From Nitrospirae bacterium CG2_30_53_67 (GTDB lineage Bacteria; CG2-30-53-67), in contig MNYV01000079.1 in the NCBI GenBank assembly GCA_001873285.1, positions 1 to 15,125 of the forward strand: a DNA stretch of 15,125 bases, read 5' to 3'. Below, in pieces: positions 1 through 15,005 of the stretch (positions are counted from its first letter, which is position 1; the number at the start of each line of letters is the position of its first letter). The translations under genes and the position numbers were made by a program. Under the pieces are notes generated by a model that made no database searches, was not told the DNA's origin, and saw only the letters and a program-made list of their open reading frames with translations.

Positions 1-1254
1 GGGCAGAACGCTTTAAAGCTGCTCCGGGAACAGTCTTTTGATCTGGTCCTGACCGACTTGAGGATGGAGAAGGTGGACGGCATACAGATCCTGCAGAAAT
101 GCCGTGAACTCTGCCCGGATACCGAGGTCATCATGATCACGGGTTTTGCCACACTGGAATCCGCCGTCGAGACCATGAAACACGGGGCGTTCTACTATAT
201 CGCAAAACCGTTTAAACTGGACGAAGTCCGCAAAGTCGTCAAAGAGGCCCTGGAGAAGGTCAGGCTGAAGAAAGAAAATATCCAGCTCAGGGAACAGATC
301 GAAAAATTTCAGGGAAAGGTCAGGATCATCACACAGGACCCCGAAATGCAGCGCCTGCTGGACACGGCAAAACAGATCGCCCCGACGGATTGCAACATCC
401 TGATCAGCGGGGAAAGCGGCACGGGCAAAGAGTTATTCGCCAGATTCGTCCATTTTCACAGCCATCGCTCTCCCGGCCCTTTTTCCGCCATCAACTGCGG
501 CGCATTCACCGAAGAGCTTCTCGCCAATGAACTTTTCGGCCATGAAAAAGGGGCCTTCACCGGGGCCTCGGCTGCGAAGAAAGGATTGATCGAGACGGCA
601 TCGGGGGGAACGCTCTTCCTGGATGAGATGACCGAGATGCCTCCATCCATGCAGGTGAAGCTCCTGAGGGTGATCCAGGAAAAGGAAGTCCTGAGAGTCG
701 GCAGCACGGAACCATCTAAAGTCGATGTGCGCTTCATCGCCGCCACGAACCGTGACACCCAGGAGGCTGTCAAGAGCGGCCATCTCAGGCAGGACCTGTA
801 CTTCCGTTTGAACGTGGTCTCTTTACATATTCCTCCCCTCTCGGAGAGAAAGGATGACCTCCCCCTTTTAAGCCATTATTTCCTGAAAAAATATGCCGTC
901 CTGATGAAGAAAAGCGTCACGGAGATCTCAGAGGACGTCATCGCCCTCCTCATGGATTATGGGTTTCCCGGCAACGTGAGGGAACTCGAGAACCTCGTCG
1001 AACGGGGGGTCGCGCTCTGCAACGGGAATACCATAGAGATCGCCCACCTCCCTGAGGACCTCAAGGAGCTGAACATCAAGACCTTCCGCAAGAAGCATGG
1101 GAAGATCCCGTCCCTGGATGAACAGGAGAAGGCGTATATCCAATGGGTCCTGAAAGATGTCAATGGGAATAAAACACTGGCGGCCCAGATCCTCGGCATA
1201 GACCGGGTTTCCCTGTGGAGGAAACTGAAGCGATACGGGATCGAGAACGAGTAG
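1..1254 (+). CDS. NtrC-family sigma54-dependent response regulator (5' end outside window)
   Basis: Bacterial enhancer-binding protein that uses ATP hydrolysis to open sigma54 promoters when its receiver is phosphorylated. The reading frame is open from base 1, so the N-terminus lies outside the window. Receiver: the phospho-acceptor Asp is the GAC at 55-57 in LVLTDLRM, with the conserved Thr in MITG and Lys in AKPFK. AAA+ domain: Walker A GESGTGKE (409-432), the sigma54-contacting GAFTGA loop (550-567), Walker B LFLDEM with Asp-Glu at 622-627, and an arginine-finger stretch LRQDLYFRL after 784. C-terminus: a Fis-type helix-turn-helix (NKTLAAQILGIDRVSLWRKL, about 1168-1230). All catalytic parts are intact. 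It stops at 1252-1254, immediately before two tandem dyad sites and a -24/-12 promoter, so those are its probable targets. The cognate kinase may be upstream of the window or be the kinase at 5970. Confidence 0.97.
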   Translation, partial: GQNALKLLREQSFDLVLTDLRMEKVDGIQILQKCRELCPDTEVIMITGFATLESAVETMKHGAFYYIAKPFKLDEVRKVVKEALEKVRLKKENIQLREQIEKFQGKVRIITQDPEMQRLLDTAKQIAPTDCNILISGESGTGKELFARFVHFHSHRSPGPFSAINCGAFTEELLANELFGHEKGAFTGASAAKKGLIETASGGTLFLDEMTEMPPSMQVKLLRVIQEKEVLRVGSTEPSKVDVRFIAATNRDTQEAVKSGHLRQDLYFRLNVVSLHIPPLSERKDDLPLLSHYFLKKYAVLMKKSVTEISEDVIALLMDYGFPGNVRELENLVERGVALCNGNTIEIAHLPEDLKELNIKTFRKKHGKIPSLDEQEKAYIQWVLKDVNGNKTLAAQILGIDRVSLWRKLKRYGIENE

Positions 1255-1356: not shown

Positions 1357-1372
1357 TGGCATCATCCTTGCA
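1357..1372 (+). promoter_or_regulatory. Sigma54 (-24/-12) promoter
   Basis: TGGCAT, then CATCC, then TTGCA gives the invariant GG (1358-1359) and GC (1370-1371) separated by exactly 10 nt, a near-consensus RpoN promoter. Transcription should start near 1383, leaving a leader of about 37 nt before the ATG at 1420. The promoter follows an NtrC-type activator gene and its tandem sites, so activation by that regulator is likely. Confidence 0.88.
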
Positions 1373-1419
1373 TAAACATACAAGTAGGCATATTAAAAAA
1401 CATAAGCGAGGTGAGCATC

Positions 1420-2196
1420 ATGAAAAATATTTTTAAAGTGTTGAAGGATTCCATGGAAGCCGCCGCCTTTGCAGAGGCAGGCGAATTCGAGACCGCACGG
1501 AGCATGGCGGCATCCGGCAAAAAAGAAGAGCAAAAAGTCGTGGACATCAAAAAGACCATGGCAGGGTCCCTGTCGAGACTCGATACCATTGAAGAGGCCA
1601 TCACCTTTGCCGAGGCAGGCGAGATCGACACGGCCCGCCGCATCATGAAGCAGTTGAAGGGCCGCAGTTCCGTAAAAAAGGTTCATGCCGACAGCGAAAA
1701 ACAGGCGCCTTTATCGGTCCTGGATAAGATGTCTGAGGCCGTGACCTTTGCCGAGGCAGGGGAACAGGAATACGCCAGGGAGCTGATCGGCAAAAAAGAG
1801 ACTAAACGGCAGAAGATCCTGGTGGTCGGGGGCGACGACGGCTTCTCGGAAACGCTCATGAACTACGCCGTTGGCATGGCAGGACGGATGAACTATGAGA
1901 TTGTCGCCCTCAGTGTAATTCCCGTCGGGAAACGCATCTTAAATCTCCTGAACGAGAAAAAAGTCGCCGCCGAACTTAAGACCCAGACCCATCAGATGGC
2001 CGAGGCTTTCAGAGCCAAGGCAGAGGGAAAAAAGATACCCTTCACGCACATCGTGAAGTTCGGTCCTTTCGACAGGGTGGTCAAAGAAACGCATAAAGAG
2101 GTGAAGAGAATCGCCTTTGTGCTGGCGGAACCGGATCAGGTTTGTGATGGCGCCACAGGTTCCGTCCCCGTGTTCTGTCTTGCATCCGGAGAATGA
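1420..2196 (+). CDS. Three FAEAGE-motif repeats plus degenerate universal-stress-protein-like domain
   Basis: Soluble 258-aa protein of unknown function. The ATG at 1420 is preferred over an in-frame GTG at 1411 because GAGGTG (1408-1413) lies 6 nt before it and would overlap the GTG. Residues 14-29, 60-75 and 107-122 carry three copies of a motif whose core reads FAEAGE-x-[ED]-x-AR, spaced 46-47 residues apart and separated by charged, Lys-rich linkers. The pattern (small residues, central Gly, Ala four to five residues later) recalls a half-TPR helical hairpin. Residues from about 131 onward (QKILVVGGDD, then an alternating strand/helix pattern) resemble a UspA-like fold, but the GxxGx9G(S/T) nucleotide-binding signature is not visible, so ATP binding is doubtful. 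It is driven by the sigma54 promoter just upstream. The same motif ends the response regulator at 8887-9342, suggesting a shared partner. Role unknown; a regulatory or adaptor function for the transporters nearby is inference. Confidence 0.85.
   Translation: MKNIFKVLKDSMEAAAFAEAGEFETARSMAASGKKEEQKVVDIKKTMAGSLSRLDTIEEAITFAEAGEIDTARRIMKQLKGRSSVKKVHADSEKQAPLSVLDKMSEAVTFAEAGEQEYARELIGKKETKRQKILVVGGDDGFSETLMNYAVGMAGRMNYEIVALSVIPVGKRILNLLNEKKVAAELKTQTHQMAEAFRAKAEGKKIPFTHIVKFGPFDRVVKETHKEVKRIAFVLAEPDQVCDGATGSVPVFCLASGE
1459..1785 (+). repeat. Three coding repeats of a FAEAGE helical motif
   Basis: The three units lie at about 1459-1506, 1597-1644 and 1738-1785. At protein level they read AAFAEAGEFETARSM, AITFAEAGEIDTARRIM and AVTFAEAGEQEYARELI. 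The DNA is also similar (tttgc-gaggcagg cores) but diverged at third positions, so these are old protein repeats rather than recent DNA duplications. A fourth copy is encoded at 9271-9321 in a response regulator. Confidence 0.85.
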
Positions 2197-2476: not shown

Positions 2477-4282
2477 ATGCTGACAACCGATATGATGCTT
2501 GTGATGGCTGTGATCGCAGCCGCTGTATTTCTTTTCGTTGTGGAATGGGTCAGGGTTGACGTGGTTGCGATCATCGTGATGGTCTCCCTCCCCCTCCTGG
2601 GCCTGGTGACCGGGCAGGAGGCCTTCATGGGGTTCAGCAGTAACGCCGTCATCTCCATTATTGCCGTGATCATCATCGGGGCGGGACTGGACGGGACAGG
2701 GATCATGAATAAGGTGGCCAAACCCATCACGCGCCTTGCCGGGAACAGCGAGGCCAGGCTGATTGCCCTGGTGTCCGGCACCGTGGCCCTGATCTCTTCC
2801 TGCATGCAGAATATCGGCGCCGTGGCCCTCTTCCTTCCCGCAACGCAGCGGGTCTGCAAAAAGCTCGGCATCGCTCCCTCAAGGGTCTTGATCCCCCTCG
2901 GGTTTCTCGGCATTATCGGCGGGTGCCTGACCCTGGTAGGTTCCAGTCCGCTGATCCTCCTGAACGACCTCATGGCCACAAAAAATCTGAAACCTTTCGG
3001 GCTTTTCGATGTGACTCCCGTCGGCGCCGCCCTGGTGATCGCCGCCCTCGCCTATTTCGCCTTCTTCGGAAAATTGGTCTTGCCGAGCACGAGCGGTAAA
3101 ACCGCGCCCTCACAGACCATTGATTTCGGCAAGATCTACTCTTCCGCAAATGAGCTGATCGAGCTCAAATTCCCAAAGGAGTGTGACTGCGAAAAAACCC
3201 TGGAACAGATGGCCATCCGTCCCAACTATCTCGTCACCGTGGTTGCGGTTGCCAAACAGGGGGGAAAGAAAAAGATCATGGCCCCCACCTGGGAGACGAT
3301 CATCAGCCCGAATGACGACATCGCTGTGGTCGGGTCCAGAGAAAACGTCATGCGATTTGCCGAGGATTACAGCATGACGATCAAAGACAAACTCGAGATC
3401 TTCGAAGATGAGCTCTCATCGAGCAGTTCGGGGATGGTCGAGACCATTGTCCCCCCGATGTCCAAGCTCGAGGGAAAGTCCATGAAGGAGGTCCATTTCA
3501 GAGCGAAATACCAGGTCAACCCGATCGCCGTCAAAAGGCAGGACAAGGTCTATTACGGAGGCATCTCCAACATCATCCTTCGGCAGGGGGACGTCCTGCT
3601 CCTTCAGGGGATCTTCGAGAAGTTTGCCATTCTCAAGGAAACCAAAGACCTGGCCTTTCTCACACCCATCGAGACTGAAGTGATGAAAACACAAAAGTCC
3701 GGAATGGCCCTTTTATGCTTTGCCGTCGCCCTTCTCCTCGTCTTATCCGGAAAGGTCAAGCTCTCCCTCGCCCTGATGACCGGCGCTCTCGGGATGATCT
3801 TAACGGGAGTGATCAACATTGATGAGGCCTATCGTGCCGTAGACTGGAGAACGGTTTTCCTGCTGGCAGGACTGATCCCATTGGGTGTGGCCACGGAAAA
3901 GAGCGGAACCGCCGCCTATATCGCAAATCATATCCTAAAAATGATCGGAGACGTCTCTCCGATCGTCCTTCTGACGGTCATCGGACTGCTCACCTCAGCG
4001 TTTACCCTTGTCGTCTCCAACGTGGGCGCTACGGTCCTCCTCGTCCCTCTGGCCATCAACATGGCCTTGGGCGCCGGAGCGGACCCGAGGATGGCGGCCT
4101 TGACCGTGGCCGTGGCCGCATCCAACGCTTTTGTCCTTCCCACGCATCAGGTCAACGCCTATATCATGGGGCCGGGCGGGTACAGGACCATGGATTACAT
4201 CAAGGCGGGATCAATTATGACCTTCTTATATCTTGCAGTGATGATCGGCGCCATCTATATCTTCTACGGCATATCCGCTTAA
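2477..4282 (+). CDS. SLC13/DASS-family anion permease with two internal TrkA_C domains
   Basis: Inner-membrane transporter of 601 aa, probably a Na+-coupled importer of sulfate, dicarboxylate or a similar anion; substrate cannot be read from sequence. N-terminal half: hydrophobic helices from residue 7, and the family loop GFSSNAVISI with a following GLDGTGI segment. Two soluble RCK_C/TrkA_C-type domains follow at about residues 222-300 and 315-395, typical of the large YfbS-like subgroup. C-terminal half: helices from about 402, with paired half-site signatures SSCMQNIGA and VVSNVGATVL, where the family usually has Ser-Asn-Thr, and a typical end NAFVLPTHQVNAYIMGPGGY. AGGAG at 2463-2467 supports the ATG at 2477. 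The 280-nt stretch before it (2197-2476) shows no convincing promoter or terminator, so readthrough from the sigma54 transcript is possible. The TrkA_C pair suggests control by a ligand or nucleotide. Confidence 0.9.
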   Translation: MLTTDMMLVMAVIAAAVFLFVVEWVRVDVVAIIVMVSLPLLGLVTGQEAFMGFSSNAVISIIAVIIIGAGLDGTGIMNKVAKPITRLAGNSEARLIALVSGTVALISSCMQNIGAVALFLPATQRVCKKLGIAPSRVLIPLGFLGIIGGCLTLVGSSPLILLNDLMATKNLKPFGLFDVTPVGAALVIAALAYFAFFGKLVLPSTSGKTAPSQTIDFGKIYSSANELIELKFPKECDCEKTLEQMAIRPNYLVTVVAVAKQGGKKKIMAPTWETIISPNDDIAVVGSRENVMRFAEDYSMTIKDKLEIFEDELSSSSSGMVETIVPPMSKLEGKSMKEVHFRAKYQVNPIAVKRQDKVYYGGISNIILRQGDVLLLQGIFEKFAILKETKDLAFLTPIETEVMKTQKSGMALLCFAVALLLVLSGKVKLSLALMTGALGMILTGVINIDEAYRAVDWRTVFLLAGLIPLGVATEKSGTAAYIANHILKMIGDVSPIVLLTVIGLLTSAFTLVVSNVGATVLLVPLAINMALGAGADPRMAALTVAVAASNAFVLPTHQVNAYIMGPGGYRTMDYIKAGSIMTFLYLAVMIGAIYIFYGISA

Positions 4283-4284
4283 AA

Positions 4285-4698
4285 TTAGTGCCCCCCGGTC
4301 TTCAGAACACCGGAGGCTGCCAAGACCAGCACCAGCACCTCGATGATGGCGATCACCGCATAAACCGTGTCCTTCTTTCGGAAGAGAATCGGTATGATCC
4401 TGATGTAACAGACGATGGTCACACCTGCAAGAAAGACAATGCCCACAAAGTTGAGGAAATCCCCATGACCGATTAATCCCACCCAGGACCACCCATGAGG
4501 AATCCCTGTCTTTGCAAGATAGTCATGGACCGGCATGCCCCAGTAGTTCGGGAGATCCCTTACCGGAAGATAAGGGGTAAGGATCCCCGTAAGATAAACG
4601 GTAAAAGTCACCATAAGCATCAGCAGTCCGAATTTCATCCCCTTGTCCAGAATCGCGGCATAGGCAAGCTGTTCTTCCGTGGCCTTTATCTTTTTCAT
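4285..4698 (-). CDS. Small membrane protein, DUF1634-like, partner of TauE/SafE
   Basis: Predicted 137-aa inner-membrane protein with about three hydrophobic helices: near the N-terminus (GLLMLMVTFTVYLTGIL), in the middle (FLNFVGIVFLAGVTIVCYI) and at the end (VYAVIAIIEVLVLVLAASG). The pattern of an N-terminal helix, a central loop, then GI-FLAG-T-ending in a basic RKKD loop and a last helix resembles DUF1634, a family often encoded beside TauE/SafE exporters. Start: ATG at 4698 with GAGGGG (complement of 4708-4713) 9 nt upstream; an in-frame TTG at 4722 would be less well placed. It lies 27 nt downstream of the TauE gene on the same strand, so they are one operon. Its stop is 2 nt from the stop of the convergent permease. 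A role as accessory subunit or stabiliser of the exporter is inferred. Confidence 0.75.
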   Translation of the reverse strand: MKKIKATEEQLAYAAILDKGMKFGLLMLMVTFTVYLTGILTPYLPVRDLPNYWGMPVHDYLAKTGIPHGWSWVGLIGHGDFLNFVGIVFLAGVTIVCYIRIIPILFRKKDTVYAVIAIIEVLVLVLAASGVLKTGGH

Positions 4699-4725
4699 TT
4701 TGATTTTCCCCTCTTTCAGCAAAAG

Positions 4726-5691
4726 TTAATTCCAGATACCCAGCCCTTTCAACAAGGCACGAAGCCCGGCAAAAGAGAGCATGGTGATGACGATGTATTT
4801 AACGGCAGCCGGTTTTGTCCTCGTAAGGATCTGGACCCCGACGATGGAGCCGAACATGATCCCGATGATGGAAGGGACCACGATCATGGGGAGCACGGCC
4901 CCGTTGTTCACATAGATCCATGCCGCTGAAGTGTCCGTGATGGAGAGCAGGAATTTACTGGTCGCAACAGAGACCTTGAGCGGGGCCCCCATCATCAGGT
5001 TCAGGACCGGCACATTGGCCCAGCCGGCGCCGAGACCAAACATTCCTGCCATAATGCCGACAAGGACAAAGGTGGCAAGGGCCTGGGGGGTCCTGTGTAC
5101 CTGCCAGTTGATCTCCTGATCGGATGAGACCTCATAATAGATCCCGTTGATTCTGAGCGCCGTGGAAAGGGCGTCCGGTTCCTTCACCTCCGGGAACTCG
5201 GACTTCTTGGCCATCAACATGATGACCACGATCCCGAGAATGGTGGCGCCCAGAGCGGTTTGAACGACGTTCGTGGGCAGCGCAAGACCGATCATCGCGC
5301 CCACAATGGCACAGGCCGAGGCAATCACCGCCACGGGGATGACCAGTCTCAGATCCGCAAGCCCTTTTTTCAGAAGCCCGGGACCCGCGGCAAGGGCGCC
5401 TGCCAGGGCGACCAGGAGTCCGGCCCCTCTGACAAAATCAAGGTGAAACGGGAAGAAGCCTCCGATAATCGGCACAAAGAGCACGCCCCCTCCAACCCCG
5501 CCGAGAACGGCCAGAATCCCGAGGATGAAAGTGACGACAAAGAGGATCAACGGCCACGCCCACCAGGGGAGGCTTGATTGCTGGGCTGCGGCCTCCATGG
5601 CATGTTCCCCGCCAAAGGCGATCCCCGACAGGCTCAACCCGATCACTGCGGCTATGGCAAACCATAAAGAACCCCGTCTCCAACCACCCAT
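4726..5691 (-). CDS. TauE/SafE-family sulfite/anion exporter
   Basis: Polytopic inner-membrane protein of 321 aa in the TauE/SafE (DUF81) family, whose members export sulfite, sulfoacetate or related organosulfur anions; exact substrate not deducible. The N-terminus (basic GGWRRGS then a hydrophobic run to GIAFGG) looks like a signal peptide or first helix. Family hallmarks occur twice, as expected for an internal repeat: LGGVGGGVLFVPII in the first half and GLGAGWANVPVLNLMMGAPL in the second, each followed by a Lys/Ser-containing helix. A soluble loop of about 45 residues (SEFPEVKEPDALS to HRTPQ) separates the halves. Start: ATG at 5691, with a perfect AAGGAGG (complement of 5700-5706) 8 nt upstream; a longer frame to 5736 would run through the operator and lacks such a site. 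Expressed from the sigma70-type promoter at 5766-5794 with the palindrome at 5722-5738 in its leader. Co-transcribed with the DUF1634-like gene. Confidence 0.92.
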   Translation of the reverse strand: MGGWRRGSLWFAIAAVIGLSLSGIAFGGEHAMEAAAQQSSLPWWAWPLILFVVTFILGILAVLGGVGGGVLFVPIIGGFFPFHLDFVRGAGLLVALAGALAAGPGLLKKGLADLRLVIPVAVIASACAIVGAMIGLALPTNVVQTALGATILGIVVIMLMAKKSEFPEVKEPDALSTALRINGIYYEVSSDQEINWQVHRTPQALATFVLVGIMAGMFGLGAGWANVPVLNLMMGAPLKVSVATSKFLLSITDTSAAWIYVNNGAVLPMIVVPSIIGIMFGSIVGVQILTRTKPAAVKYIVITMLSFAGLRALLKGLGIWN

Positions 5692-5721
5692 TTCAATGGC
5701 CTCCTTATTCAGATGCTTTCT

Positions 5722-5738
5722 TGTTGTACATTGCAACA
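5722..5738. promoter_or_regulatory. Palindromic operator upstream of the TauE/SafE operon
   Basis: TGTTGTACATTGCAACA is a 17-nt imperfect dyad with TGTTG/CAACA arms. It differs at only three positions from TGTTGCATATTGCAATA at 1275-1291, giving a common pattern TGTTGYAYATTGCAAYA. A weaker TGTTACAAATCAAA begins 21 nt away at 5743, echoing the tandem arrangement at 1255-1290. The site is centred about 30 nt downstream of the predicted TauE start of transcription, a position that favours repression. Confidence 0.65.
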
Positions 5739-5969: not shown

Positions 5970-7700
5970 GTGCAAAAGATCATTCATTATCTAAAAGACC
6001 TTCTTTTTTTCCGGCCCTGTGATACCCTGAGCTACTCAGGCAAAATCCGGGACAGGCGTTTAAGAATCAGACTGATATTAATGATTGCGCCCCTTTCTCT
6101 GTTCCCGCTCTTCATCGTGATGACCGTAAGCTACTTCTGGCTGCAAAACCTCCTGAAAGAAGATTTCCAGAACCAGTTGAGATGGGATCTTGAGAACACG
6201 AAGAACTCGATTGAGTTTTTCGTAAACGTGAAGCTCTCGGCTCTCAGGTTTCTTGCCTCCGGCCATCGGTACGAACAACTATCGAATCAGAAGATACTGG
6301 CCGACGTCTTTACCGCCTTCAAACAGGAATTCGGTCAGGTGGTTGACCTTGGCCTGATTGACGCAGAAGGTATCCAGCAATCCTATGCCGGCCCTTATCA
6401 TCTGAAAGGCAAGGACTATTCCAATCAGGAATGGTTCCATCAAGCGGTTGCCCGTGGGATCTACGTCAGCGACGTCTTTATGGGTTATCGAAAAGTCCCT
6501 CATTTTGCGATCGCTGTAAAGAAAGAAGTTCCTGAAGAAGGAAGCTTCTGGATTATCCGTGCGACCATTAATATGGAAACCCTCAACAGTTTTGTATCCT
6601 CCATCAATCTCAACAGTGAGGATGACGCCTTTATCATCAATGAGAGCGGCATCCTGCAGACCCCTTCCCGCTTCTATGGAAATGTTCTGGAACAGTACCC
6701 GTTACGGAACACACTCAATCAACGGGGCGTCTCGGTGTTGAATACAAAGCAGGCGAATGGGAAACCTGCCATGTTCGGATATGCCTATATCAAGGACTCA
6801 CCCTGGATCTTATGCACAGTCATCAAATCAAGACCGGATACAAAAATAGCAAGGTTGTTCCAGGGAGAATTCTTTGCGATCCTGATAGGGAGCTTATTAT
6901 TTGTCATCCTGATGGCCATGCGCATGGCCCAGATCATGGTCAACTGGATCAAAGACTGCGATCAGAAAAGAGAAGCCGCGCTTTCCGAAGCGGAACATGC
7001 CAGTAAACTGGCATCCGTGGGCCGCCTTGCCGCCGGCGTCGCTCACGAAATAAACAACCCGCTGGCGATCATCAACGAAAAGGCCGGCTTGATAAAAGAT
7101 ATTCTTGCCATGAGCGGGGACGTCTCTGCACACAGGGAAAAGATCCTGAACTCCGTCAAGGGCATACTCGACAGCGTGAACCGCTCCAGCGCCATTACCC
7201 ACCGTCTCCTGGGATTCTCCCGCCGTATGGACGTGACCCCGGAGCTTTTTGATGTCAATGACGTGATCAAAGAGGTTCTCGGTTTCCTCGAAAAAGAGAT
7301 CCTGTTCAGAGACATCCGTCTGATACAGGATCTCAAAGAAGGTCTCCCGATCATTCAGAGCAACAGGGGGCGGCTGCAGCAGGTATTCCTGAACATTATC
7401 AATAATGCCATTGATGCGGTGAATACCGGCGGCTGCATTGATATAGCCTCAAAGGTCAAAGACGAGAATACAATTTATGTGGTCGTCAAAGACAACGGCA
7501 AGGGAATACCCAAAGCGGCGCTCAAGCATATCTTTGAGCCCTTCTTTACCACAAAAGAAAAAGAGAAGGGGACCGGGCTCGGCCTTTTCATATCATACGG
7601 GATTATTAAACAATTAGGAGGGAATATCCTTGTTGAAAGCGAAGTCAAGAAGGGGACCGTCTTTACCATTGAACTCCCTCTGATATCTGCCGCAGGTTAA
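5970..7700 (+). CDS. Membrane sensor histidine kinase with periplasmic Cache-like sensor region
   Basis: Class I histidine kinase of 576 aa. TM1 lies at about residues 32-57 (LILMIAPLSLFPLFIVMTV), then a periplasmic region of about 240 residues that looks like a double Cache sensor (KDYSNQEWFHQAV and FIINESG are typical), then TM2 near 300-320. The DHp helix has GRLAAGVAHEINNPLAII with phospho-acceptor His359. The ATP-binding domain has the N box IINNAIDAV (about 476), G1 DNGKGIP (Asp508), F box FEPFFTTK and G2 GTGLGLF (about 534), so it should be an active NtrB-like kinase. No HAMP domain is obvious. Start: GTG at 5970 with GGAAAG about 7 nt before; no in-frame ATG lies upstream of TM1. It opens a co-directional set with the response regulator at 7715 and the HPt-like protein at 8096. 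The ligand is unknown, though Cache domains commonly bind small anions or amino acids. The 278-nt gap upstream, shared with the divergent TauE gene, holds that gene's control sites. Confidence 0.92.
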   Translation: MQKIIHYLKDLLFFRPCDTLSYSGKIRDRRLRIRLILMIAPLSLFPLFIVMTVSYFWLQNLLKEDFQNQLRWDLENTKNSIEFFVNVKLSALRFLASGHRYEQLSNQKILADVFTAFKQEFGQVVDLGLIDAEGIQQSYAGPYHLKGKDYSNQEWFHQAVARGIYVSDVFMGYRKVPHFAIAVKKEVPEEGSFWIIRATINMETLNSFVSSINLNSEDDAFIINESGILQTPSRFYGNVLEQYPLRNTLNQRGVSVLNTKQANGKPAMFGYAYIKDSPWILCTVIKSRPDTKIARLFQGEFFAILIGSLLFVILMAMRMAQIMVNWIKDCDQKREAALSEAEHASKLASVGRLAAGVAHEINNPLAIINEKAGLIKDILAMSGDVSAHREKILNSVKGILDSVNRSSAITHRLLGFSRRMDVTPELFDVNDVIKEVLGFLEKEILFRDIRLIQDLKEGLPIIQSNRGRLQQVFLNIINNAIDAVNTGGCIDIASKVKDENTIYVVVKDNGKGIPKAALKHIFEPFFTTKEKEKGTGLGLFISYGIIKQLGGNILVESEVKKGTVFTIELPLISAAG

Positions 7701-7714
7701 GTGGAGATTCACCG

Positions 7715-8092
7715 ATGCCGCGCACCAAAGTGCTTCTAATTGATGATGAAGCGGAATTTGTAACAGCGCTTGCAGAACGGCTGCAGTTACGCAATTACGA
7801 TGCGACCGCGGTATTCTGCGCCGATGATGCCTTCTCGGCTTTTCTCAAAAACCCTCCGGATGTGGTATTGCTGGACCTGAAAATGCCAGGAATGGACGGC
7901 ACGGAAGTGCTGAAGACCCTTAAACTGTATGACCCTTCCGTGGAGGTGATTATCCTGACCGGTCTCGGAGCGGAACAGAGCGGCAACGAAGGGATCAGGA
8001 GAGGTGCTTTTGATTATGTGGTGAAGCCGGTGGATATTGACGACCTCACCGTAAAAATCGACCAGGCCAAGAAAAAAAAGGATAAGGAATAA
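7715..8092 (+). CDS. Single-domain response regulator (CheY-like)
   Basis: Stand-alone receiver of 125 aa with no output domain. It has the acidic pair in LLIDDEAEF, phospho-acceptor Asp54 in VVLLDLKMPGMDG, a Thr in IILTGLG and Lys in VVKPVD, so it should be phosphorylatable. ATG at 7715 has GGAG 8 nt upstream and sits 14 nt after the kinase stop, which makes the kinase its likely phosphate donor. It probably passes phosphate on to the histidine protein encoded 3 nt downstream, or acts by protein contact. The C-terminus ends in a Lys-rich tail. Confidence 0.93.
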   Translation: MPRTKVLLIDDEAEFVTALAERLQLRNYDATAVFCADDAFSAFLKNPPDVVLLDLKMPGMDGTEVLKTLKLYDPSVEVIILTGLGAEQSGNEGIRRGAFDYVVKPVDIDDLTVKIDQAKKKKDKE

Positions 8093-8095
8093 TCT

Positions 8096-8764
8096 ATGCA
8101 CAATGAGACCGAACAGGCGTTAAGAAACCTGCAACGCCTCTTCATGGGAAAAATTCTTGCCGGTTTTACTCATGAGATGAAGAACTATCTTGCAATTATC
8201 AAGGAATCCTCCGGCCTGATGCAGGACCTGATCTCTATGGGAAAATCTTCATCGAAAAAGGATGCTCACCCTTTGGTACCGTCTCTTCAATTAATTGATG
8301 AGCAGGTTGACAGAAGCATCCATATACTGAATCACCTGAACCGCTTTGCACACCGGATGGACAGACCTTCTTCCAGTTTTCTTGTTCATGATATCCTGGA
8401 GGAACTTATGGTCCTCATGAGCCGGTTTGCAAACCAGAAAAAAATCATCCTTGAGAAAGATTTTCAAAAAAACATCCCCGCGATCATCTCTGATCCGGCA
8501 AGACTTCAATGCCTGATCTACTGCCTGATTGAAGAGAAGCTAAACAGGCTCGATGCCAACAGCAAAATTACCCTTCAAACATCCTCCTCAAAGGACAATA
8601 TACTGATCCGGCTGGTTCCAAAGGGGAATACCCTGAACAAGGAAAACGAAAATGGCCTGCCATCTCATGAAGTTCTGCAGGAGATCATACGGGATTTGCA
8701 TGGAGAACTTGCTCATGAGGAGAATGAAGCGATAACCATAAAACTCCCTTTGTCCCAAGAGTGA
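8096..8764 (+). CDS. Histidine-phosphotransfer-like protein: DHp domain with degenerate kinase ATPase domain
   Basis: Cytoplasmic protein of 222 aa, no membrane segment. Residues 12-45 form a DHp helix with a conserved phospho-acceptor motif, LAGFTHEMKNYLAII, His26. A second helix (about 60-85, LQLIDEQVDRSIHILNHLNRFAHRMD) completes the hairpin. The rest aligns in layout to a HATPase_c domain (LVHDILEELMVLM; IPAIISDPARLQCLIYCLIEEKLNRL), but the N-box Asn residues are replaced (CLIEEKLNRL), and no DxGxG or GxGLGL boxes can be seen. ATP-dependent autophosphorylation therefore seems unlikely, and the fold matches Spo0B/ChpT-type phosphotransferases or a pseudokinase. It starts 3 nt after the response-regulator stop, with AAGGAA about 7 nt before the ATG, so translation is tightly coupled. 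Likely relays phosphate between receivers encoded on both sides. Its stop lies in the terminator stem. Confidence 0.8.
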   Translation: MHNETEQALRNLQRLFMGKILAGFTHEMKNYLAIIKESSGLMQDLISMGKSSSKKDAHPLVPSLQLIDEQVDRSIHILNHLNRFAHRMDRPSSSFLVHDILEELMVLMSRFANQKKIILEKDFQKNIPAIISDPARLQCLIYCLIEEKLNRLDANSKITLQTSSSKDNILIRLVPKGNTLNKENENGLPSHEVLQEIIRDLHGELAHEENEAITIKLPLSQE

Positions 8765-8826: not shown

Positions 8827-8856
8827 TTGACAAGATAGTGTTATTATATTTATTTT
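8827..8856 (+). promoter_or_regulatory. Sigma70-type promoter for the two-receiver operon
   Basis: A perfect TTGACA at 8827-8832 is followed, after 18 nt, by TATTTT (8851-8856), in an AT-rich stretch just past a terminator. An alternative -10, TATAAC at 8856-8861, is a better match but too far away. The leader to the ATG at 8887 would be about 25 nt. Confidence 0.6.
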
Positions 8857-8886: not shown

Positions 8887-9342
8887 ATGAAAGATATTAA
8901 GGTATTGCTGGTGGACGACGAAGAGGCCTTCGTCAACACACTGGCTCAGCGGTTAAAGATGCGGGATCTGAAAGTGGAAACCGTGTATAACGGCGAAGAG
9001 GCCCTTTCTTATGTCAAGGAAAAGGAACCGGATGTCATGGTATTAGACCTGAAAATGCCGGGCCTACATGGCATGGATGTTCTGCGGAAGATCAGAAAGG
9101 CCTATCCAAACATCCAGGTGATTGTCTTGACCGGCCATGGTACGGAAAAAGATGAGATCGAGGCCAAAAGACTCGGCGGTTTCGACTTTCTCAAGAAACC
9201 GGCGGACATTGAGACCCTGGTCAGTAAAATCAGGGTGGCCTATAAGGAAAAACTGGAAAGGGCCATGACCGCCGTTGCTTTTGCCGAAAGCGGTGAGTTT
9301 GACACAGCACGGGAAATCATGAATGAAGAGGAAAACGATTAA
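8887..9342 (+). CDS. Single-domain response regulator with C-terminal FAEAGE-type motif
   Basis: Receiver protein of 151 aa. Receiver, residues 1-120: acidic pair in LLVDDEEAF, phospho-acceptor Asp54 in VMVLDLKMPG, Thr in VLTGHG, Lys in FLKKPAD. A short C-terminal extension, residues 121-151, replaces any DNA-binding domain and contains AVAFAESGEFDTAREIM (9271-9321). This matches the three repeats of the 1420-2196 protein almost residue for residue (FAE-[AS]-GE-F-[DE]-T-AR). AAGGAG at 8874-8879 lies 7 nt before the ATG. The extension may let the phosphorylated receiver bind the same partner as, or pack against, the repeat protein. It lies 21 nt upstream of another receiver gene, so they are co-transcribed. 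Confidence 0.93.
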   Translation: MKDIKVLLVDDEEAFVNTLAQRLKMRDLKVETVYNGEEALSYVKEKEPDVMVLDLKMPGLHGMDVLRKIRKAYPNIQVIVLTGHGTEKDEIEAKRLGGFDFLKKPADIETLVSKIRVAYKEKLERAMTAVAFAESGEFDTAREIMNEEEND

Positions 9343-9363
9343 ACTGCACAGGAGGAAATGGGG

Positions 9364-9804
9364 ATGTCCGAGGAAATAAAAGCCAATGTTCTATTAGTGG
9401 ACGATGAAGAGAAGTTTATAGAGGTCCTTTCTCAAAGACTTGAGGGACGGGGACTGAAAGTGGATATCTCGACCAGCGGTGAAAATGCCCTGAAGCGGGT
9501 GAAAGATAAAGACTTTGACGCGATTGTTCTGGATCTGGCCATGCCGGGACTCGACGGCATTGAGACCATCCGGCGCATGAGGAAGATGAATCCGGATCTT
9601 CAAATCATCATGCTCACAGGACATGCCACGGTGGAGAAGGGCGTCGCCGCCATCAAGGAAGGGGCCGCAGATCTTTTAGAGAAACCTGTGGATCTCAACA
9701 AGCTCCTCTTGAAGATCGAAGAAGCCAAACACAAAAAGATCCTCATCGTTGAAAAAGAACATGAGGAAAAAATTAAGGAAATATTAAAGACCAAAAGCTG
9801 GTAA
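9364..9804 (+). CDS. Single-domain response regulator
   Basis: Stand-alone receiver of 146 aa, closely similar in layout to the receivers at 7715 and 8887 but without the FAEAGE motif. Acidic pair in LLVDDEEKF, phospho-acceptor Asp57 in IVLDLAMPGLDG, Thr in MLTGHAT, Lys in LLEKPVD. The last 25 residues form a Lys/Glu-rich extension with a second short strand-like ILIVEKEHEEK. Start: the ATG at 9364 is preferred because AGGAGG (9350-9355) lies 8 nt before it; the ATG at 9358 would leave only 2 nt. No terminator was recognised after its stop. Confidence 0.92.
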   Translation: MSEEIKANVLLVDDEEKFIEVLSQRLEGRGLKVDISTSGENALKRVKDKDFDAIVLDLAMPGLDGIETIRRMRKMNPDLQIIMLTGHATVEKGVAAIKEGAADLLEKPVDLNKLLLKIEEAKHKKILIVEKEHEEKIKEILKTKSW

Positions 9805-10468: not shown

Positions 10469-10523
10469 CTTCCAGGTTTTCAAGATTTTTCTATAATTGA
10501 GATTTATTTACAGAGAGTGGAAA

Positions 10524-13500
10524 ATGACCACTGAAGACCTGGATTTAAGACCTGCCGATATTCAGCTTCTCTCCACCCCTGATGACATTGCCGCCTTTTT
10601 CGCCTCCCTCGGCTGGAACACGGACGAGAAGGCCGGTGCCCGTATCAAGCAGAGCGCCTCTGCGCTCGGCATCACACCTGAGTCAATCGCACGGACCATC
10701 AAACACGTCGAACGCCTTGCGGACCAGGAAAACGGCGGTCTCCAGGTTTACCTCTTTGAACTCACCTCGGTCACGGTCGCCGCCGTCAGGGCCTTATCTC
10801 GCACCTTCAGAGACCGGGCCGGGAAATATCTTCTTGTCCTCACGAGTGACTACGAAACTATCGATTTCGTCTTCCTCGAACGCATCCTTCCTCCAGCCAA
10901 AGGAGCGGGTATCACAATTAAGACCGTCGGCATCCGGCCCCATCCTCTGACCGTCAATCGCAGGAACCCCGACATCATTGCTCTACGGGTATTGAGGCGC
11001 TTCACCTATACAGAATCCGACGCCGACGCCCAGGCAGACAAGCTCCTCTCGGCCTTCGGTATTGCAGAATGGTCTGAACGGCTATTCAACAACCGCGCCC
11101 TTTTCTCGGACTATTACCTTCAGGAACGCCTGACCCAGTCTCCGGAATGGAGTGAGCCGATCAAACCGCTCCTGCTTAAATTCAGAGAGCTTTATACAAA
11201 CGTCCGGGAACGGTTCATCGGGCAGAAGGAAGGGGTCGTGAGATCACAGCTTCTCGAACCCGCCTTTGACCTGTTAGGCTTTAAACCCATTGAAGGTAAG
11301 TCCGGCGGAGACCCTGCTGCAAAACCGGACTACCGTCTTTACCCAAAAGATTCTGCTACGGGTAATCCACTTGCGGTCTGTCTTGCCTACACCTGGAACC
11401 GGTATCTCGACGGCAAGGATGAAACCAGAGACACCGAAACCTCTGATGAAAACCCAGGCGCCCACGTGGTGACGCTCCTTGAAGCAGGCGAGGCGTCGTG
11501 GGCCATCGTCACGAACGGAAAGATATGGCGTCTCTACTCGGCGAAGGCCCATTCGCGGGCAACGAACTACTACGAGATAGACCTTGAAGAAGTCCTTGCG
11601 ATGGCAGACCCGAAAGAAGCCTTCCAGTATTTCTATCTTTTCTTCCGCGCCCCGGCTTTTATTCCGAAAGAGGAACTTTACAAAGGTGAGAAACGGACCG
11701 TTGCATTTGTCGATAAGCTCATCGAAGAGAGCGAGACCTATGCCAAAGAACTCGGCGAAAAATTAAAGGCACGAGTATTCGATAAAATATTTCCGCACTT
11801 TTCCGAAGGCTTCATCGAGAATATGGGAGGCGCTGAATACGTCTTGTCCCTGCCCGAAAAAGAACGGGAGGAGAAGCTGCAAGACTGCTACCATGGAACG
11901 CTTACTTTCCTATACCGTCTTCTGTTCCTGCTCTACTCCGAATCCCGGAACCTCCTGCCCGTCACCGAGGTGAGAGGGTACTGGGAGATGAGCCTTACTC
12001 GTCTCAAGGCAGAGGTGGCGAAGCACGCCGGCACTATCCTGGATGAAGCGCCGGAAAAGATAAAGAAAGCCTATCACGGCAGCAGTACGGAACTCTACGA
12101 CCGGCTGTTCAAGTTGTTCAGCGTTATCGACAATGGTGATTCAGATGTGAACGTCCCGCTTTACAACGGCGGCCTGTTCATCACCAACCCTCCGAAGGAC
12201 GACGACTCCCCGGAAGTCAAGAACTCTCGCTTTCTCCGCAATCACAAGATACCCGATCGCTATCTTGCCCTTGGCCTGGACATGATGGCACGGGACATTG
12301 ATGACAAGACTCAGGCCCTCGTCTTCATAGATTACAAGTCCCTCGGCGTTCGGCACCTGGGCTCCATCTATGAAGGACTTCTTGAATTCAAGCTCCGTAT
12401 AGCCGAAGAAAAGATGGCCGTGGTCAAGGGCAAGAAGACCGAGGAGATCGTTTCCTATGCCGAGGCGAAAAAGGACAAACTGCGTATTCTCACCATCGGA
12501 CGCGGCAAGAACGCGGAGGAGCGGGTTCTCAAGAAAGGGACTGTTTATCTCGAAAACGACAAGCGCGAGCGCAAGGCCACCGGCTCTTACTACACACCGG
12601 ACTACATCGTCAAATACATCGTTGAGAACACCGTCGGTCCGGTTCTGGCTGAAAAGCTCGATGCTTTGCGTCCCAAGCTCCGCGAGGCACAGCAGACCCT
12701 CAAGAAAGAACGGGATAAATACAAGGCCCTCGGAGGCGCCGGCGACTCACCCGAGAACCAGACTTATCTCAGGCACCGCCATCTCGTGGATGAGCTCTTC
12801 GACATCAAGGTGCTCGATCCCGCCATGGGCAGCGGGCATTTTCTGGTCGAAGCCGTGGACTTCATCTCCGACAAGATTCTCGGCGATAGGGAAGGCTTCC
12901 TCCGCGCCTTTCCCTGGAACCCCATCACCGCGGAAATGGAAAAGACCCGCCAGACCATTCTGAGCGAAATGGAAAAGCAGGGTGTGAGCATAGACAGAAA
13001 CCGCCTAACCGACGTGAACCTTCTCAAGCGCCACATCCTCAAACGCTGCATCTACGGCGTGGACCTGAACCCCATGGCCGTGGAGCTTGCCAAAGTCTCC
13101 CTCTGGCTCGACTGCTTCACCCTCGGCGCGCCGCTCTCGTTCCTGGACCATCACCTCAAATGCGGAAACTCACTGATAGGAGCAAAGGTCGAAGAAGTGC
13201 GGGGAAAAGTTGAAACCGGCCAGTTGAGCCTTCTGGGTGGCACCCACTTCCAGGGGCTGATGCTCGCCACCGACCTCATGCGCCATATCGGTGAGCTTTC
13301 GGACGTGACCGCAGAGCAGGTCAGAAATTCCCGGTCAGAGTATAAAAAGGCCGTAGATGCTCTTGCGCCGTTCAAGCGTTACATGGACGTCTACACGAGC
13401 CAGTGGTTCGGAAATGAACCGAGGACTGTGGGTAAAGGCAAGAAAAAGACTGAATACAACCCTGCCCTGGAATTTCTCCGATCCAAAGAATCCGAGGAAT

Positions 13501-15005
13501 GGGCAAAGGCGCCGCACAAGGCCAAGCTCCCCGCAGAATGGAAGGGAATCGCCGCTACTACATTTGCTGCCGAGGAAGAGAAACATTTCTTTCACTGGGA
13601 GCTGGAGTTTCCCGAAGTTTTCTATGGCCCGCGTCCGGGAACTACACAGGTAATTGAACGAATCAAAGGGGCAGGCTTCGATGCGGTAATCGGCAATCCG
13701 CCCTATGATGTGCTTGCGAGTGAGGAGCTGGGTTATGAGATATCAAGAGATGTTGAATACTTCTTAGCATCTGATCTGTATAAACCGGCAGTTCGCGGTG
13801 CCCGTAATCTCAATAAGCTTTTCATTTGTCGTGGACTCAGCATAACAAAAGAGAATGGGACATTCTCTTTTATTGTTCCGATGTCGCTTCTTGGTGATGA
13901 GCAGGCAACCGGCATACGCAAAATGATGTTGGAGAAGACCGGGGTAATGTTAATTGAGGCTTTCCCGCAAAAAGATGATCCTCAAAATAGGGTTTTTGCA
14001 GAAGCCAAGCTGTCAACGGTCATTTTTGTTATACGTTCCGTACCTACGGGTAAAAAGTTCACAATACGGACTCATTCAGGGAAGCTGTTTGAAGATAGTG
14101 CTTCAATGTTAGCAGTTGCACCGGCAGATATTCTGACGTTTGATAAGGAAAATGCAACAATACCTTCTTGTACGCAACATGACTGGGATTTGATTGGGTT
14201 GATACGACAGGGCGCTATACAACCCATGGGTAATGTTGCAAAGTTATTTGAGGGAGAATTACATGCTCTGACGCATCGAGAGTTCATAAACGCCAACAAC
14301 AAGGGGCCGGTTATTATCCGTGGTTCAAATGTTACCTTATATGCCTTACGAGAAGCCTCTCAAGGCGAGGAATTAAGATTGGATGTGAGAGCATATCTGA
14401 AGGATAAATCAGAAAATAGCAGAGCCTTTGCACATCTCCATAAACGAATAGGTATTCAGCGGAGTGCTCCCCAAAACAATTTCAGAAGAATCATAGCTGC
14501 AATGTTGCCTGAAGGGGTATTTTGCTTCGATAAGCTTAAGTACATTCCTCCTGCAGCAAGTAAAATCGACCTCGATTTGCTGATCGCCGTTTTAAACTCA
14601 ATAATTCTGGATTGGTATTTCAGACTCATTAGCACGAACGCGATGATAAATGAATATCAGTTTAACTCCTTGCCAGCGCCGACATTCAGTGATGAAGGCC
14701 CGAGTGTTGATTGGCGATCGTTGGTAAAATCCGGGAAGTGGGCAGATGTTGGAAATATGCTGTGTTCGGTTTGCGTCGAGCCCGGCGTTATGCACAAGCC
14801 GGTGCAAGACGCCCTTACTGAAATGAGCCGACAAATCCAGAAGATCGAAGCCGCTCGTGTTCTTAAAAATAGATCCGAGCGCTCCCGACTCGCACCTGAA
14901 AGCCAGCCGATACAGAATACCATTGATAGGATCTTGTTCCGTTGCTATGGGCTTTCTGATGAAGAAGCTGAGTATATTTCAAAGCGGTTGCAGGAAATGC
15001 TTTAA
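10524..15005 (+). CDS. Eco57I-type (type IIG-like) DNA adenine-N6 methyltransferase, nuclease motif degenerate
   Basis: Very large protein, 1493 aa, from the ATG at 10524; a TTG at 10497 would add nine residues but leaves the GAGAGTGG site at 10513-10520 unused. Residues 1 to about 210 form an unassigned domain (VLTSDYETIDFVFLER is typical). About 225-370 matches the layout of the PD-(D/E)XK part of type IIG enzymes: KPDYRL with Asp269, then LAVCLAYTWNRYLD, then WAIVTNGKIWRLYS. The expected E-x-K is replaced by Leu287-x-Tyr289, so cleavage is doubtful. The methylase core has LGSIYEGLLEF (about 616), TGSYYTPDYIVKYIVENT (about 687), SAM-binding DPAMGSGHF (Asp765), GVDLNPMAVELAKVSLWL and catalytic NPPY (Asn1058): motif order of a gamma-class adenine methylase. 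Residues 1065-1420 should be the target-recognition region. No helicase domain. It may modify DNA alone or with a partner gene beyond the window, as in type II, BREX or DISARM loci; the window ends before that can be seen. Confidence 0.88.
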   Translation: MTTEDLDLRPADIQLLSTPDDIAAFFASLGWNTDEKAGARIKQSASALGITPESIARTIKHVERLADQENGGLQVYLFELTSVTVAAVRALSRTFRDRAGKYLLVLTSDYETIDFVFLERILPPAKGAGITIKTVGIRPHPLTVNRRNPDIIALRVLRRFTYTESDADAQADKLLSAFGIAEWSERLFNNRALFSDYYLQERLTQSPEWSEPIKPLLLKFRELYTNVRERFIGQKEGVVRSQLLEPAFDLLGFKPIEGKSGGDPAAKPDYRLYPKDSATGNPLAVCLAYTWNRYLDGKDETRDTETSDENPGAHVVTLLEAGEASWAIVTNGKIWRLYSAKAHSRATNYYEIDLEEVLAMADPKEAFQYFYLFFRAPAFIPKEELYKGEKRTVAFVDKLIEESETYAKELGEKLKARVFDKIFPHFSEGFIENMGGAEYVLSLPEKEREEKLQDCYHGTLTFLYRLLFLLYSESRNLLPVTEVRGYWEMSLTRLKAEVAKHAGTILDEAPEKIKKAYHGSSTELYDRLFKLFSVIDNGDSDVNVPLYNGGLFITNPPKDDDSPEVKNSRFLRNHKIPDRYLALGLDMMARDIDDKTQALVFIDYKSLGVRHLGSIYEGLLEFKLRIAEEKMAVVKGKKTEEIVSYAEAKKDKLRILTIGRGKNAEERVLKKGTVYLENDKRERKATGSYYTPDYIVKYIVENTVGPVLAEKLDALRPKLREAQQTLKKERDKYKALGGAGDSPENQTYLRHRHLVDELFDIKVLDPAMGSGHFLVEAVDFISDKILGDREGFLRAFPWNPITAEMEKTRQTILSEMEKQGVSIDRNRLTDVNLLKRHILKRCIYGVDLNPMAVELAKVSLWLDCFTLGAPLSFLDHHLKCGNSLIGAKVEEVRGKVETGQLSLLGGTHFQGLMLATDLMRHIGELSDVTAEQVRNSRSEYKKAVDALAPFKRYMDVYTSQWFGNEPRTVGKGKKKTEYNPALEFLRSKESEEWAKAPHKAKLPAEWKGIAATTFAAEEEKHFFHWELEFPEVFYGPRPGTTQVIERIKGAGFDAVIGNPPYDVLASEELGYEISRDVEYFLASDLYKPAVRGARNLNKLFICRGLSITKENGTFSFIVPMSLLGDEQATGIRKMMLEKTGVMLIEAFPQKDDPQNRVFAEAKLSTVIFVIRSVPTGKKFTIRTHSGKLFEDSASMLAVAPADILTFDKENATIPSCTQHDWDLIGLIRQGAIQPMGNVAKLFEGELHALTHREFINANNKGPVIIRGSNVTLYALREASQGEELRLDVRAYLKDKSENSRAFAHLHKRIGIQRSAPQNNFRRIIAAMLPEGVFCFDKLKYIPPAASKIDLDLLIAVLNSIILDWYFRLISTNAMINEYQFNSLPAPTFSDEGPSVDWRSLVKSGKWADVGNMLCSVCVEPGVMHKPVQDALTEMSRQIQKIEAARVLKNRSERSRLAPESQPIQNTIDRILFRCYGLSDEEAEYISKRLQEML

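Follow-up and report, generated by a model that had tools for sequence, protein, structure and literature searches.

A mobile helical module shared by a receiver protein, Usp-type proteins and small proteins near TauE and SLC13 transporter genes

What does a response regulator do with a short tail in place of an output domain, and why does that tail recur in a repeat protein of the same gene neighbourhood? The question is raised by the gene at 8887-9342 in a stretch of 15,125 nucleotides from Nitrospirae bacterium CG2_30_53_67, called the window here.

The receiver tail and its counterparts in the repeat protein

The receiver gene and its surroundings hold the following features.

8827-8856, forward strand: sigma-70-like promoter match (TTGACA, 18, TATTTT) 5' of the tailed receiver, only suggestive; such matches are not above shuffled expectation
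8887-9342, forward strand: tailed receiver, 151 aa, PF00072 at E 2.4e-31 over residues 6-116, phospho-site residues kept
9244-9333, forward strand: its C-terminal module KEKLERAMTAVAFAESGEFDTAREIMNEEE, residues 120-149, by module profile

The product of 8887-9342 ends in KEKLERAMTAVAFAESGEFDTAREIMNEEEND. It scores 108.6 bits against PF00072, above the cut-off of 30.2, and the Pfam search gave no domain besides this single receiver, in agreement with the initial annotation, which had called the receiver otherwise output-less. The alignment places the acidic pair at D10 and D11, the phospho-Asp at D54, the Thr/Ser at T82 and the Lys at K104. The structure model is CheY-like and matches the NtrC1 receiver (E 3.7e-13), with a pLDDT of about 90 in the receiver and 49-55 in the tail; at this low confidence alpha5 is modelled as running on into the tail (helix 108-134), with an interruption at GE before a second helix (137-150). 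Helix 1 of the module has a hydrophobic core, which suggests a buried face on this helix. Between genera, 21-25 of 28 tail residues are kept with synonymous sites near saturation, and the tail is under purifying selection.

The counterparts of the tail lie near the other end of the window.

1357-1372, forward strand: exact match to a sigma-54 type promoter, TGGCATCATCCTTGCA, between the NtrC-family gene and the repeat gene, the only one in the window; putative promoter
1411-2196, forward strand: repeat protein, three modules followed by a Usp-like domain (module profile; PF00582 E 0.0015)
1432-1521, forward strand: module copy 1 of the repeat protein, residues 8-37
1570-1659, forward strand: module copy 2, residues 54-83
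1711-1800, forward strand: module copy 3, residues 101-130

Judged from the sequence, ATG at 1420 is probably the start of the repeat gene rather than GTG at 1411. The Usp-like domain matches PF00582 with 19.5 bits, below the cut-off of 24; the same family is matched at E up to 0.1 in 15 of 27 module proteins, relatives reach E 6.8e-8, and one relative scores 33.6 bits. The structure model of the repeat protein is poor (mean pLDDT 50.5).

The motif AVAFAESGEFDTAREIM at the receiver end had been said to match the repeats at 1459-1785, and this is confirmed by cross-profiles and genome-wide searches, with a shared element of 30 residues that is slightly longer than the motif first noted. An HMM built from 46 non-receiver modules outside the source genome's own phylum gives the receiver tail 49.5 bits, against 8 for the best shuffled control; conversely, a profile built from 10 foreign receiver tails gives repeats 1-3 scores of 29, 28 and 15 bits, repeat 3 being the least similar copy, and 200 shuffled copies of all window ORFs reach at most 8.7 bits. 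Since profiles that are foreign and trained on other carriers recognise both, the likeness of tail and repeats goes far beyond composition or chance. In the source genome (2.36 Mb, 95% complete) the module is confined to the tailed-receiver and repeat genes: a degenerate DNA pattern run over the whole genome found the four module sites and one out-of-frame chance match only, and a profile search at E up to 1 returned only the four copies (3e-14 to 4e-12). We therefore give almost no credence to a chance or convergent TPR-like helix consensus, against which both the cross-profile score and the restriction to one gene set speak, even though the G-x4-A spacing is as in TPR and TPR_4 is weakly matched (E 0.063). 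Module and TPR are both helical hairpins with this spacing; the module, however, occurs as single hairpins, unlike the tandem solenoids of TPR. Membership of the TPR family was considered and rejected (TPR_4 14.4 of 27 bits; hhalign to consensus TPR, 5.6% probability).

No model in Pfam or NCBIfam covers the module, a text search of 5.39 million open-access papers did not find the string FAEAGE, and solved structures gave chance-level module matches only, the best being an RHH antitoxin (E 1.1). That match pairs the GEFETAREI half of the module with a helix of the antitoxin (5ceg_A).

A probable phosphorelay around the tailed receiver

Further signalling genes flank the tailed receiver.

5970-7700, forward strand: dCache sensor histidine kinase with complete catalytic domains (PF02743, PF00512, PF02518)
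7715-8092, forward strand: receiver without module in a Spo0F-like relay position (PF00072; module profile negative)
8096-8764, forward strand: Spo0B-like histidine phosphotransferase (family alignment: H-box kept, ATP-binding boxes lost)
9358-9804, forward strand: further receiver without module (PF00072)

Spo0B itself has an H-box and has lost the ATP-binding boxes. In the alignment of the window's phosphotransferase family, H-[ED]-x-x-N is present in 15/15 clear members and the N, G1 and G2 boxes are absent. A kinase lies within 9 kb of all 29 tailed receivers and a phosphotransferase within 9 kb of 26 of them. On the strength of this proximity, of the kept H-box and of the lost ATP boxes, 5970-8764 and 8887-9342 look like a phosphorelay, probably of four steps, in which phosphate would pass from the histidine kinase to the lone receiver, the Spo0B-like phosphotransferase and finally the tailed receiver. 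The parts are those of a Spo0F-Spo0B type relay (kinase, lone receiver, ATP-box-less H-box phosphotransferase, terminal receiver), but the terminal receiver of the window ends in the module and not in a DNA-binding domain, and the order of transfer in the window is predicted. The phosphotransferase family is conserved in such clusters across phyla.

The module is a property of particular receivers. In a tree of 64 receiver-only proteins, the tailed ones make up one clade plus a sister paralogue clade, and the module is absent from the other receivers of these clusters; in a wider set, 29 of the 85 receiver-only proteins at module loci carry it.

Carriers and gene neighbourhoods of the module

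We surveyed about 780 genomes, 395 from the phylum of genome G030 (the second phylum below) and 386 across the domain, with absence of modules judged on draft genomes of limited completeness. Pattern matches occurred in 51 of the 395 genomes, about 33 of which are real as judged by sequence and context; among the 386, convincing copies were found only in the source genome's own family, G030, G685 and G660. From 62 strict copies the consensus is K-E-K-L-E-D-x-M-x-A-[AVI]-[AT]-F-A-E-A-G-E-[FHW]-[ED]-T-A-R-E-I-L. Receivers carry the module at their C-terminus, Usp-type proteins at the N-terminus or within (L201 3604-4116, L135 870-1349), and it is also found in small membrane proteins (L100, L114, L098) and, singly or in two copies, in small proteins, down to proteins of 52-61 aa in which the module stands alone. 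The module is thus a mobile, previously unnamed family of helical hairpins of about 30 residues.

Between the repeat gene and the kinase gene, and upstream of both, the window encodes a regulator and transport functions.

1-1254, forward strand: NtrC-family sigma-54 activator, cut by the window edge (PF00158 E 2.6e-69, HTH_8)
2477-4282, forward strand: SLC13-type transporter with TrkA_C domains (PF03600 5.2e-76, PF02080)
4285-4722, reverse strand: 145-aa membrane protein, no significant Pfam match, recurring directly beside TauE elsewhere
4726-5736, reverse strand: TauE/SafE-family transporter (PF01925 3.4e-36)

Shortly past the signalling genes, 10497-15005 encodes a 1502-aa Eco57I-type restriction-modification methylase (PF07669 E 2.5e-25).

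The initial annotation had held that the shared motif ties signalling and transport genes into one system, and had called for a genome survey of tailed receivers and their co-occurrences. The survey was positive, with clustering of the module with TauE and SLC13 genes, and the tie is well supported: the module joins signalling, Usp and transport genes, and a TauE or SLC13 gene lies within 10 kb of at least 40 of 46 module loci (32 genomes), where gene numbers and genome sizes predict 2.8 and locus positions were read by hand. At most six of the 46 loci have neither gene within 10 kb, some of these at contig ends.

Two settings recur. Setting A comprises a kinase, a receiver, a phosphotransferase, often a two-module small protein, and the tailed receiver, together with TauE or CBS plus SLC13. 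Setting B comprises a single-module small protein, a Usp-module protein, SLC13 with TrkA_C, a sigma-54 regulator and a kinase, and often includes a receiver-AAA-Lon protease. The window is setting A with most of B; G005 has only the B half (NtrC, Usp-module, SLC13, TauE), and G002 and G004, of the source genome's own family, have only the A half.

Small module genes often lie immediately 5' of the tailed receiver gene, and this order makes gene fusion an easy origin of the tail. That the tail is no more than a relic of such a fusion, now without function, is nevertheless very improbable given the purifying selection on it and its retention across phyla. The receiver-AAA-Lon protease of setting B raises another possibility, that the module marks proteins for this protease or delivers them to it. 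In its favour, 32 of 75 non-receiver module proteins have a receiver-Lon gene no more than 9 kb away, and DVU3303 of D. vulgaris is a receiver-Lon protein (PMC3333781); yet such a gene is near only 2 of 29 tailed receivers and none lies within the window, and we consider this role improbable. At L125 8619-10634 and 15 other loci, a receiver stands ahead of AAA-Lon, the design of DVU3303, beside single-module genes.

The module is almost confined to bacteria with dsrA, a gene of sulfate/sulfite respiration. Among genomes of the second phylum, 23 of the 25 that have at least two pattern copies also carry dsrA, compared with 167 of the other 370 (Fisher p 3e-6, kinship ignored). The two dsrA-negative exceptions are G141, which has chance-like matches only, and G353, which has real modules; G685 and G660 are dsrA-positive. 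The source genome's own phylum has dsrA in 8 of 8 genomes, and since three of these have no module at all, the relation runs one way. Together, the data suggest that the module may be a common docking part for a sulfur-anion transport system in dsrA carriers.

A proposed docking role, and comparable gene sets in Desulfovibrio

Occurrence of the same module in unrelated contexts (receiver C-terminus, Usp proteins, small membrane proteins, alone) points to a docking element. The explanation we prefer, and hold with about as much belief as doubt, is that in dsrA carriers the module serves as a protein-docking element, the output arm of the tailed receiver, within a regulon for sulfur-oxyanion transport and stress. 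The tail would then be one copy of a mobile helix-GE-helix module that docks proteins, and would take the place of a DNA-binding domain as output of the receiver that ends the relay (kinase 5970-7700, receiver 7715-8092, phosphotransferase 8096-8764, tailed receiver 8887-9342). Phosphorylation may alter the exposure of the long alpha5-module arm, whereupon the tailed receiver would bind or release a partner common to the Usp-module and small module proteins. The best candidate for this partner would be something encoded alongside the relay or in the TauE/SLC13 transporter gene sets. Except for kinases, no single gene adjoins nearly all module carriers, which counts against naming the partner by context; both the docking function and this choice of partner are inferred.

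A narrower idea came with the initial annotation, namely docking of the receiver to the repeat protein, or competition with it, in a phosphorylation-dependent way. It does not hold as a general rule: in G002 and G004 and in five genomes of family f25 (G197, G249, G294, G315, G431) the tailed receiver is the only recognisable module, and the persistence of the tail in such genomes weakens the idea. A shared partner whose gene belongs with those of the relay or transporter is the better fit. The same genomes, and G005 with its Usp-module protein in the absence of a tailed receiver, argue against a homotypic arrangement in which modules pair with one another, so that Usp-module or small module proteins would be what the tailed receiver docks to, with phosphorylation as the switch. 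We rate this arrangement as unlikely but worth keeping in view: several carriers usually coexist, and each of the 11 genomes fetched from the second phylum with a pattern-detected tailed receiver also encodes other module proteins; a small protein with two modules is often encoded ahead of the tailed receiver (L096, L102, L105, L056, L205); the hydrophobic core of the helix is in keeping with self-pairing; and diverged modules below detection could reconcile the arrangement with the tail-only genomes.

Extending the docking explanation, with somewhat more doubt than belief, the module might act as a regulon-wide docking tag, borne by the last receiver of the relay, by Usp-type and small membrane proteins, and by microproteins that have nothing else; jointly these would gate sulfur-oxyanion transport post-translationally in dsrA carriers. 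We know of no description of such gating by a shared docking tag for dissimilatory sulfate reduction. Little is known of how sulfate reducers govern the passage of sulfate, sulfite and toxic analogues into and out of the cell, and the module points to an undescribed gene set of tailed receivers, Usp-module proteins and module proteins of 52-125 aa.

Gene sets of comparable content exist in D. vulgaris. There, Usp and membrane genes are under the control of DVU3303-3305, a three-component system of receiver-Lon protein, kinase and sigma-54 regulator (PMC3333781). Its chlorate phenotype may run via the anion transporter DVU3299, and DVU0539-0545 has molybdate phenotypes (PMC10102598). DVU3298-3305 resembles setting B in gene content (kinase, sigma-54 regulator, receiver-Lon, Usp, membrane and anion-transporter genes). 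The window differs in having no receiver-Lon, and the likeness is one of gene content alone, the shared module being absent from the published description as available. DVU0539-0545 resembles the window in its kinase, sigma-54 regulator, Usp-like proteins, sulfate-exporter-family transporter and 133-aa membrane protein; the portion of its description at hand mentions no tailed receiver, relay or module (PMC10102598). The effects of these gene sets on chlorate and molybdate fitness count in favour of the docking explanation (PMC10102598). Desulfovibrio is genetically tractable, and with such phenotypes already on record for operons of similar make-up it offers a test bed for the module genes and the relay.

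Two minor observations concern the range of forms that the module takes. Proteins of about 56 aa, encoded beside Usp and SLC13 genes (L125 8192-8359, L127 8168-8335, L119 7909-8073), consist of one module followed by a basic tail with an end resembling RPRxRxYRT. A related relay in G013 (L058 11143-12054) carries a degenerate module, KDDFQKGMAAAALAEGGIPEVAAEIMEKVE, which scores 10.4 bits and is possibly an intermediate or decayed form.
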